Source: an uncultured Methylococcaceae bacterium (GTDB lineage Bacteria > Pseudomonadota > Gammaproteobacteria > Methylococcales > Methylococcaceae). Taken from it: a stretch of DNA of 64,000 bases. How positions within the stretch are numbered: the stretch's first letter is position 1; the number at the start of each line of letters is the position of its first letter. Below the pieces are notes generated by a model. That model was not told the origin of the DNA. It did not search any database and worked only from the letters and a program-made list of their open reading frames with translations. The translations under genes were made by a program, and so were the position numbers. The stretch lies in the NCBI GenBank assembly GCA_903859815.1, contig CAIOOA010000153.1, positions 1 through 64,000 of the forward strand, given 5' to 3'. Below are positions 28,951 through 32,618 of this stretch, piece after piece.

Positions 28951-29622
28951 TTAGAGTGCCTGATTATCGATCAGTTGCTTGACTTGTTGCCTCAGTTCTT
29001 CCATGCCTTTTTGAAGCTCTTGCACTTGTATTTCCAAACTATCCAGCCTCTCACGACGGGTATCGCTGCTTTCAACTTCGCCAACTTCCAATGCCGGTGA
29101 TGTTTGCACAATTGGTTTCCCACTGAACAAATGTGCATAGCGTTGTTCCCGCCTGCCTGGTTCGCGGGGCAGTTTAACCACCAATGGCTCTTCCCGGTTT
29201 GACAAAGCTTCAAGCTCGGCTTCCACTTCACTGACATCGGCAAACTTACACAAACGCTCGGAGCGGGTCCGCAATTCACCCGCAGTTTGAGGGCCGCGAA
29301 GAAACAATTCGCAGATAATGGCTACGGATTTGTCCGAAAGTTTCAGATCGCCGAAGTCGGTGTTACAGAATCGATGCTGATATTTGGTAACCCGGCTGCC
29401 ATAGCCCGAAGCCCTGCTGACCATAAACTTTTTGATCAAACCATCAACCGTGTCTTGCACCGTGGATTCATTCAATTCCATGACAGGGTCGCGATTGGTT
29501 TTTTGGTTGCAGGCGTTGGTCAATGCGTTCAACGACAAAGGGTATTGGTCGGGAGTGGTGATGGACTTTTCGATCAAGCAAGCAATCACACGAGTTTCAT
29601 GTAGGCTGAGATTCATATTCAT
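28951..29622 (-). CDS. yceH: YceH family protein (UPF0502/DUF480)
   Basis: A 223-residue protein with two winged-helix-like modules and a C-terminal coiled coil (residues about 190-220). The start [16 protein letters not shown] and [12 protein letters not shown] are diagnostic of DUF480. Function is unknown. A second ATG two codons in is possible. Confidence 0.92.
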
Positions 29623-30092: not shown

Positions 30093-30182
30093 TCCTGTGT
30101 CACTGAATAGGGGGGTTCGCTGCTTTGCAATGATGAGGTCATTGAAAGCAGTGAATCCACTTTTTTAAACTGAGTTACAGGA
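30093..30182 (+). promoter_or_regulatory. Structured 5' leader that can pair with the ribosome binding site
   Basis: A near-perfect hairpin joins 30116-30133 (TTCGCTGCTTTGCAATGA) with 30139-30155 (TCATTGAAAGCAGTGAA). An outer pair, TCCTGT (30093-30098) with ACAGGA (30177-30182), can cover the Shine-Dalgarno ACAGGAG of the gene at 30192. No known riboswitch class is recognised. Confidence 0.5.
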
Positions 30183-30191
30183 GTTTGTGTT

Positions 30192-30902
30192 ATGAAACGT
30201 ATACTCATATTTGTTTTATTTTTGATTAGTTCGCTCTCAACCAGCGTTTGGGCTCTTGACGATGTCAGATGTGGCGAGTTGCTGCCAAAAGGATTGGTTT
30301 TTTCAAAAGATTGCCTGTCCGTTGTGGGCACTGGCAAGCTCAACTTGTATACGCTGCCTTCCAAGACATCCACAGGCATGGTCAATGCTCTGGTCACCAT
30401 GCCTGCGGGAACCAATGCCAAGTGGGTGGTGGATAAGGCATCGGGTACTTTAAAGGTTGAGACTGCCAGTTTAGGCATAGTCATTGGGGGAGGAACCGCC
30501 CCTTCGCAGCCCGTTATTATCAACTACCTCGGACAAGTCGCCAATTACGGCATAGTGCCTAACTCGTTATCTCCGTATGATGGCTTGCCACTCGACATTT
30601 TAGTCCTAGGTGGTCCAAGGCTCAGAGGTTCAGTCACTCCGGTCAAGCTAATTGGAGCGATTCAATTGACAGATGCGTGGGGTTCAGTAACTCACAAATT
30701 GTTGGCTGTGTTGCCGGGAACGTACTTGGGTGATAACGTTAATGATTTAGACGGCTTGGATGCCGTTGCACCTGGGGTCAAAACCATAGTCCAAACTTGG
30801 TTGGAAAATGCCTCTGGTGTACCATTGACTGCGACGATCTTAGACTTAGGGACTGCCTATGCTGTTTTGGATGCATCGGTTCCCATAGTGCTTGGAAACT
30901 AA
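30192..30902 (+). CDS. Secreted inorganic pyrophosphatase-like protein, probably not catalytic
   Basis: A 236-residue protein with an N-terminal signal peptide (cleavage near A-L-D-D). The body follows family I soluble pyrophosphatase: M-P-A-G-T-N-A-K-W-V-V-D-K, then A-N-Y-G-I-V-P-N-S-L, S-P-Y-D-G-L-P-L-D-I-L-V-L, R-G-S-V-x-P-V, I-Q-L-T-D and K-L-L-A-V. Against E. coli Ppa the K29, Y55, D65, D70 and D97 positions are kept, but E20, E31, R43, D67 and D102 appear replaced (T, V, none, L, V/T). Pyrophosphatases are normally cytoplasmic, so export plus lost ligands suggests a binding or structural role. GGAG precedes the ATG by nine bases inside a structured leader. Confidence 0.72.
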   Translation: MKRILIFVLFLISSLSTSVWALDDVRCGELLPKGLVFSKDCLSVVGTGKLNLYTLPSKTSTGMVNALVTMPAGTNAKWVVDKASGTLKVETASLGIVIGGGTAPSQPVIINYLGQVANYGIVPNSLSPYDGLPLDILVLGGPRLRGSVTPVKLIGAIQLTDAWGSVTHKLLAVLPGTYLGDNVNDLDGLDAVAPGVKTIVQTWLENASGVPLTATILDLGTAYAVLDASVPIVLGN

Positions 30903-31088: not shown

Positions 31089-32618
31089 TCATTTTCCCGG
31101 CAATGCTTTTTTGAAACCACCTACCATCATGCGACCGGCATTGCCCAATTGTCGCAGGATTAATTCCCACCTTTCCCGTTCAAATCCATCTTTTAAGCAA
31201 CGCAGATAGCGCGACCTCCGAGCTTGAGGCAGTTGGGACGCGATGACCGCCCAAACCGCTTCAATATTCCATTCATCACCCGATTTAAAGCAAACCGCCT
31301 GCACCTGTTCCAATGGGATGAAAAGGGTTTCGGCAACATGTTCCATGCATAAACGTATTTGGCTTTCCTTGCTGCTTGAAGCTTGCTCGAAATTATAAGG
31401 TGGGTTCCATTCGCGGCTTGGACGAAGCAAGTCGATATGGGTGAGAACCACAATCACTGGCGGGGGAACTCGGTCTGGCGTTTTCGCATACAAAATGCGC
31501 AAAGATTCAAGAAATTGACGGTCGGCTGCTCGTCCGGCTTGAACGGCGGAGCAAACCAGCAACACAAGGTCCACCATTTGCAGTTCTGCCAAGTTTTCCT
31601 CCACCCAAGTGACATGGTCGCCATAGCCAGGACTATCGAAAATGATGCCGAGCAGTTCCCCCTCCTGTTCCAACCGATAGGGCAATAGAACTCGGGTTGA
31701 GGGCAATACATCTATGGGCGATTGCAATTGCCCGAACAAAGCATTGATAAGGCTGGATTTCCCTGCCTTGGTTTGGCCTGCCACGAGTATGCGCAGCGGT
31801 TCTTCCAACTGACTCTGCTGCAAGGCATCCGCGTTTTTCAAATCTTTGACCGATTGAAGGCTGATGTTTCCATGCTGGTTTGGGCTCATCCATAATTCCC
31901 CGCTGTACAGCAAGATGGCGTAATGCCCCAATCTTCTTGCCAAGGACTGCAACAGCCATTTTTCCAAATCACCCAGCGGGTAGCGGACGACACGCTTAAA
32001 CAAGGCCATGCGCGACTTCTGCATAATGGCGGAAATGGGGCTTGCCAACATCCAGCTTATATCGCCCAAGACGCCCAAACTTTTCAGTTTTTCCTTCCAA
32101 CGCCATAACACCAAACCATCTTGGATGCTGATGAGGTGGCTGGCAGGGACTTGACTGGTCAACAACTCGCGCATGTCATGACTGACGCGCTCAATCATGA
32201 GCAAAATGCTAGGCAAAGGCACCTCCAGTTCTGCCGCTTCCGAGCTTTGGTTGAACTGTTTTGCCACTTGCGAAATGATGCGCCTTGCCAAACTCATCAA
32301 CTGGGCAGGGTCGCTGAGCGGATAATCGGATGGACTCAAGGACTCGGCAATTTTTTCGACCACTGCCCAAGCCTCCTCGGCAGCAGGCGAAACCAATCGT
32401 TCAGGATGAAATTCTGGAAATTTCGAGAAGTGTGAGACCTGCTGTTTGTTCAACCATAGCCCCGCCAAGCCTGACGCGCATAAAACAGCCAGAGCAATCC
32501 CGGCAAATGGATAGAATAGACCCTGCTGGCAAAGCCAGAAAACCCCTAACCCGGCCAACAATAGCAATAGAAAAAAGGCCACGAAGACCCACACAAACCA
32601 AAACCAAAGATTCCACAT
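31089..32618 (-). CDS. Membrane-anchored GTPase (dynamin/Era-like P-loop)
   Basis: A 509-residue protein with two N-terminal membrane helices (about residues 5-30 and 36-55), a helical region, then a GTPase domain: G1 GQTKAGKSSL near residue 281, G3 D-S-P-G-Y-G near 327 and G4 T-H-I-D near 392. It belongs to the broad YfjP/YeeP/Era-like group found with other GTPases. The exact family is not clear to me. It directly follows the second GTPase gene (two bases apart), so both are probably made together. It would act at the inner membrane facing the cytoplasm. Confidence 0.8.
   Translation of the reverse strand: MWNLWFWFVWVFVAFFLLLLLAGLGVFWLCQQGLFYPFAGIALAVLCASGLAGLWLNKQQVSHFSKFPEFHPERLVSPAAEEAWAVVEKIAESLSPSDYPLSDPAQLMSLARRIISQVAKQFNQSSEAAELEVPLPSILLMIERVSHDMRELLTSQVPASHLISIQDGLVLWRWKEKLKSLGVLGDISWMLASPISAIMQKSRMALFKRVVRYPLGDLEKWLLQSLARRLGHYAILLYSGELWMSPNQHGNISLQSVKDLKNADALQQSQLEEPLRILVAGQTKAGKSSLINALFGQLQSPIDVLPSTRVLLPYRLEQEGELLGIIFDSPGYGDHVTWVEENLAELQMVDLVLLVCSAVQAGRAADRQFLESLRILYAKTPDRVPPPVIVVLTHIDLLRPSREWNPPYNFEQASSSKESQIRLCMEHVAETLFIPLEQVQAVCFKSGDEWNIEAVWAVIASQLPQARRSRYLRCLKDGFERERWELILRQLGNAGRMMVGGFKKALPGK

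Follow-up and report, generated by a model that had tools for sequence, protein, structure and literature searches.

An exported pyrophosphatase-fold protein of lake methane oxidisers, probably reused for a non-enzymatic role outside the cytoplasm

Based on residue-by-residue comparison of a protein with its orthologues and more distant relatives, combined with phylogeny and structure prediction, we propose that an exported family I pyrophosphatase (PPase) pseudoenzyme is encoded by a gene of an uncultured Methylococcaceae bacterium, located at positions 30192 to 30902 of the window, i.e. the whole stretch of 64,000 nucleotides analysed here. Very likely, the protein does not hydrolyse pyrophosphate and instead binds a partner via its scaffold, so that a PPase fold would probably have been reused by lake methane oxidisers for a non-enzymatic job outside the cytoplasm. 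Family I PPases are classic housekeeping enzymes with a near-unvarying active site. A preliminary description, made from the letters of the DNA alone, had already suggested an exported and probably non-catalytic pyrophosphatase fold, and this reading is strengthened by orthologues that lack the ligands as well. What is added here is the line of descent, which sequence comparison traces to an exported, yeast-like PPase family and not to cytosolic Ppa.

An exported protein with a family I fold

The gene lies in a genome of 5.8 Mb (315 contigs, 99% complete). It and its surroundings comprise the following features.

28951..29622, minus strand: YceH-like (DUF480) gene, upstream and divergent (PF04337, 220 bits; synteny in 5 genomes)
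30180..30183, plus strand: ribosome-binding site GGAG, 8 nt 5' of the ATG, as read from the sequence
30192..30902, plus strand: gene for the exported PPase-like protein (P0001), 236 aa, ATG start (PF00719; 4 orthologues in the genus)
30192..30254, plus strand: signal peptide MKRILIFVLFLISSLSTSVWA, residues 1-21, as read by eye from the sequence
30270..30314, plus strand: N-terminal extension with C27 and C41 (alignments of the clade and of exported relatives)
30390..30806, plus strand: family I PPase domain, residues 67-205 (PF00719 match; ligand tables)
30468..30512, plus strand: variable-length loop, about residues 93-107 (clade alignment)
31089..32618, minus strand: GTPase gene (MMR_HSR1/dynamin-like), downstream and convergent (domain match; conserved neighbour)

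By eye, the leader (MKRILIFVLFLISSLSTSVWA followed by LDD) consists of a basic n-region, a hydrophobic core and a V-W-A site, the latter typical of signal peptidase I. An MKR-[IL]-LIF leader is common to all orthologues of the clade, and M1-K2-R3, L5-I6-F7 and W20 of the signal peptide are invariant in the alignment of the five orthologues. Downstream of it, every member of the window clade has C27 and C41, which its exported catalytic relatives lack, a pattern compatible with a possible C27-C41 disulfide. The variable loop is placed between the strand following K29/E31 (catalytic residues are given in E. coli numbering throughout) and the NYLG motif; its length differs greatly among the orthologues, being some 25 residues longer in one of them (L023).

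Residues 67-205 match PF00719 with 52 bits (E 9e-14; cut-off 23.5), establishing membership of the sequence family. The protein scores 35 bits with the NCBIfam Ppa equivalog (PRK01250), for which the cut-off is 200, and all Ppa equivalog matches are sub-threshold. AlphaFold2 yielded a model with pLDDT 70 and pTM 0.67 from a 17-row alignment, in which residues 121-220 are mostly above 85 and residues 13-48 and 92-114 are of low confidence (a single-sequence prediction, pLDDT 50, was left out of the results). When the model was compared to the PDB using Foldseek, the top 50 matches were all family I PPases (human, E. coli, Rickettsia, Burkholderia and yeast), with human 7btn as the best structural match (E 2.7e-11, probability 1.00) and E. 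coli variants at about 1e-10. A TM of ~0.7 normalised to bacterial PPases agrees with a family I fold, in a model of moderate confidence. Hence, the signal peptide and the family I similarity noticed in the preliminary description are both borne out, the former by eye and the latter by profile as well as by the structure prediction recommended there.

Loss of catalytic residues

Catalytic capacity was assessed on a set of 14 residues: E20, K29, E31, R43, Y51, Y55, D65, D67, D70, D97, D102, K104, Y141 and K142. The window protein keeps six, namely K29 (K77), Y55 (Y119), D65 (D130), D70 (D135), D97 (D161) and K104 (K169). In the remaining positions, E20 is T69, E31 is V79, Y51 is Q115, D67 is L132, D102 is T167 and, just past the domain, Y141 is A207 and K142 is S208, and R43 corresponds to V108 in the exported-family-anchored alignment or to T91 in the E. 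coli-anchored one, neither being arginine. E98 also differs, but varies in active PPases too. The preliminary description had listed E20, E31, R43, D67 and D102 as replaced, which is right for all five in two alignments, and D65, D70, D97 and K29 as retained, which is right for the window protein; Y51, Y141 and K142 are losses beyond its list.

The five clade members keep 6, 5, 8, 4 and 4 catalytic residues, with the same counts in both alignments. E20, E31, R43, Y51, D67 and D102 are gone from all five, among them the counterpart of yeast D117 (D67), the general base by which the attacking water is activated (PMC11210485). Invariance across the clade is confined to Y55 and K104: D65 and D70 are changed in G003, D97 is replaced by S in G001 and by E in G002, and K29 is changed in G003 and G001, while G005 retains Y141 and K142. 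The alignments reveal no clade-shared acidic residue near the positions of E20, E31, D67 or D102 that could act as a substitute, and none of them restores the missing ligands; restoration of all metal ligands in a structural alignment was what the preliminary description had named as contrary to its reading. Misalignment hiding the ligands was ruled out, as the two alignment sets agree except for the placement of R43, and so was a misread cytosolic Ppa, as the ligands are lost in all orthologues.

The set is far better preserved outside the clade. In the exported-family-anchored alignment, 16 of 17 exported relatives keep 14/14 residues and one keeps 13 (the row L123, a longer protein of which the wrong end was aligned, is not counted among the 17). 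The E. coli-anchored alignment included 32 PPases from outside the clade (cytosolic, exported or carried by phages), each with 13-15 of 15 positions preserved. Within the clade, 2/15 ligand columns are invariant versus 55/138 other columns (Fisher p 0.05, borderline alone), and scaffold residues are invariant where D65, D70, D97 and K29 vary. The variation at these four within the clade speaks against continued strong selection on the old site. Judging from its residues, the protein is probably catalytically inactive.

The residues that do persist, D65, D70, D97, K29, K104 and Y55 (in G005 also Y141 and K142), could still allow the protein to bind metal or phosphate weakly or to retain some activity. 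One form that this could take, itself a sub-case of a pseudoenzyme, is a sensor or scavenger in the periplasm, with the old pocket serving to bind pyrophosphate (PPi), phosphate or metal without hydrolysis. The invariance of Y55 and K104, the retention of K29, D65 and D70 in most members and the unusually high PPi reported for methanotrophs (PMC7298851) are compatible with such a role; however, the substrate-binding R43 and Y51 are lost and Y141 and K142 mostly so, and the high PPi of methanotrophs is intracellular whereas the protein is exported, which together make this role rather unlikely. We deem it improbable that the protein is still an enzyme of altered chemistry, i.e. a slow periplasmic phosphatase or pyrophosphatase in which D65, D70, D97, K29 and K104 bind one or two metals. 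The window protein does keep these residues along with Y55, as G005 does Y141 and K142, but the metal residues vary across the clade, the general base is missing from every member, and a new activity should conserve residues of its own, while the clade alignment contains no clade-specific invariant acidic or histidine cluster.

Distribution and maintenance of the gene

Four orthologues were identified, all in the genus of the window and 89, 64, 57 and 48% identical over aligned residues. When a profile built from the clade was run against 311 genomes of the order, five genomes were matched, all of this genus (a sixth listed match, in G042, is a canonical Ppa and was not counted), and as far as searched the pseudoenzyme is restricted to one genus. 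Five of the seven genomes of the genus carry the pseudoenzyme-like gene and no other family I PPase, in line with the profile search of the window's own genome (G000), which returned no second PF00719 match. G004 possesses a canonical Ppa in place of the pseudoenzyme-like gene and G006 has no PF00719 match at all. The membrane PPase HppA is present in 7/7 genomes, and hence the pseudoenzyme would not be needed as a housekeeping enzyme.

No stop or frameshift interrupts the reading frame in any of the five genomes, even at 48% identity, and a sequencing error is thereby excluded. For the closest orthologue (the G000/G002 pair) dN/dS is 0.42, and for the others 0.28-0.36, compared to 0-0.26 for seven neighbouring genes, the pseudoenzyme gene being at about twice its neighbours. 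The gene is thus constrained by purifying selection, yet faster-evolving than the genes around it. Being intact, syntenic and under purifying selection, it encodes a maintained protein, the function of which may be weakly constrained in view of the elevated dN/dS. Ligands have been lost in an otherwise conserved and maintained fold, the pattern by which we recognise a pseudoenzyme.

The same data bear on the view that the gene is a decaying remnant of an exported PPase with no present function. Progressive ligand erosion, dN/dS above that of the neighbours and absence of the gene from two of the seven genomes would be in keeping with decay. Against this, the frame has been held in five genomes over dS >1, which argues against a functionless protein, dN/dS remains at 0.28-0.36 over long distances, far below 1, and the signal peptide core and many scaffold residues are invariant. 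We regard decay as very improbable and a maintained pseudoenzyme as the preferred reading.

Descent from exported yeast-like pyrophosphatases

A tblastn search of plasmids led to a 514-aa "ParB-like protein" of Vibrio pelagius, the C-terminal part of which is 34% identical over 174 residues and whose PPase part has yeast- and animal-type PPases as best solved relatives. Searches of Vibrionaceae, and then of the order to which Vibrionaceae belong, uncovered a family made up of ParBc_2 fusions and of solo exported proteins (about 217-235 aa) in which the ligands are complete; signal peptides are clear by eye in the members read. In the maximum-likelihood tree, the window clade (support 100/99) groups with the exported yeast-like PPases at 100/100, in agreement with common ancestry, and its grouping with cytosolic Ppa is rejected (p-AU 2e-5). 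The distinct exported clade that the preliminary description proposed to look for by phylogeny is consequently recovered. Its stem is long (1.2 changes per column), as one would expect once the constraint of catalysis had been lifted, and its position as sister to or nested in the exported family is separated by 58% support only. The sequences point to an ancestor that was an exported catalytic PPase and not a cytosolic Ppa, with export coming first and catalysis being lost later. An origin from a methanotroph cytosolic Ppa that acquired a signal peptide, making export and catalytic loss one event, would suit a genome that has no cytosolic Ppa, but retains next to no likelihood given this tree and the NYLG, G-x4-RG, L-I-G and W-[LF]-x-N features, which the protein shares with the exported family but which cytosolic Ppa lacks.

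A viral source was considered and rejected, with no clade relative in IMG/VR or phage records and with ligands kept in the phage PPases found. We note that an unusual PPase type is encoded on viral contigs L067-L074. Its ligands are complete, its NA-[IV]-[IV]-EIP-x-GT motif is reminiscent of the exported family, and in one tree it adjoins that family (96/92). Gammaproteobacteria also have a further group of exported PPases (L044, L047, L050 and L051; families f20 and f177) whose catalytic residues are all present; in the tree, this second group is placed apart from the window clade. Exported proteins combining ParBc_2 with a catalytically complete yeast-like family I PPase (L039:5032-6576, L043, L124 and the Vibrionaceae loci L099-L105) are covered in RefSeq by the name "ParB-like protein", which misses the PPase part; one such fusion (L125/L127, G1678:C1:2417386-2417963) is apparently broken by a frameshift inside the PPase domain. 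In L123, an exported-family PPase is followed by a C-terminal extension of ~240 residues.

Genomic surroundings

The gene is located between yceH and the GTPase gene in 4/5 genomes; in G002, where the contig stops just past the gene, the GTPase is found terminally on a second contig, consistent with the same order. The preliminary description had placed the gene beside an Hsp70/GTPase island. This is true as far as adjacency goes; a functional link with the island, or membership of it as a shared transcription unit or through constant co-occurrence, is not supported, since the gene is convergent with the GTPase gene, and therefore not co-transcribed with it, and since the GTPase pair is present without the pseudoenzyme gene in G004. 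In that genome (L062:7537-13700), the same GTPase gene is found beside genes that, by eye, are similar in sequence to those for a GroEL-like chaperonin and for the MmoC reductase and the MmoB protein of soluble methane monooxygenase. Elsewhere in the window, a CRISPR repeat family, RF01344, is matched once at positions 159-194 (40 bits), and 21-nt units form a tandem array nearby, at 311-541.

Discussion

We propose that the pseudoenzyme arose in the following manner. The ancestor would have been an exported, catalytically complete yeast-like family I PPase, of the type now present in Vibrionaceae and related families. In one freshwater Methylococcaceae-related methanotroph genus, D67, E20, E31, D102, R43 and Y51 were presumably lost, after which other active-site residues would have eroded progressively. 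The signal peptide and the fold appear to have been kept, along with an N-terminal two-cysteine segment and a length-variable loop, under purifying selection. Most likely, folding takes place in the periplasm (onward secretion being the alternative), and the protein would bind its partner through the scaffold. Its job is most likely to bind a partner or an envelope component, because the fold, the export signal and the new cysteines are kept and the active site is not. The more specific picture, of a periplasmic or secreted binding protein with the variable loop near the former active site and an N-terminal segment held by a disulfide, we see as evenly balanced.

In methanotrophs, intracellular PPi is reported to be high, phosphofructokinase to depend on PPi and the activity of soluble PPase to be very low (PMC7298851). 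This physiology fits a genus that lacks a working soluble Ppa and has HppA, and leaves the exported protein unexplained. A PF00719 match in such genomes does not equal a pyrophosphatase, and pathway reconstruction would wrongly assign a soluble Ppa here. The system offers a tractable case of an enzyme turning into a pseudoenzyme, with complete exported enzymes in Vibrionaceae and degenerate copies with 8, 6, 5, 4 and 4 of 14 residues. In the literature searched, we found no paper on PPase pseudoenzymes or ParBc_2-PPase fusions and no report on solo exported yeast-like PPases; the exported catalytic family and its fusions look uncharacterised in these papers and may deserve a study of their own.

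Relation to known systems

E. coli Ppa (b4226) has the family I core from P-A-G-x-N to K-L-x-A-V in common with the window protein, but is cytosolic and active and has 15/15 catalytic positions, compared to six in the window protein. The yeast (1e9g) and human (7btn) enzymes, the best solved relatives of the exported family, are alike in fold and sequence type; they are, however, cytosolic, active and longer, whereas the window protein is without the general base and seven further catalytic residues. The ParBc_2-PPase fusions of Vibrio (WP_255232830.1, L039) belong to the same exported PPase lineage, yet have an extra N-terminal ParBc_2 domain (PF08857, 126 bits) and the full catalytic set. 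ParBc_2 is missing from the window protein, and a ParBc_2 link within its genome is not supported, PF08857 being absent from the profile search of G000. Closest in layout are the solo exported PPases of Vibrionaceae and related gammaproteobacterial families (L106-L114 and L117-L122), with a signal peptide, ~215-235 aa and the same domain span, and with G-x-[VIL]-N-A...P-x-G-[TS], [NH]YLG, RGS and W[FL]xN in common with the window protein. Unlike the window protein, in which the complete catalytic set of the exported lineage is no longer found, they keep all 14 residues together with the TALPK.LGGDGDP loop and are without the two N-terminal cysteines.
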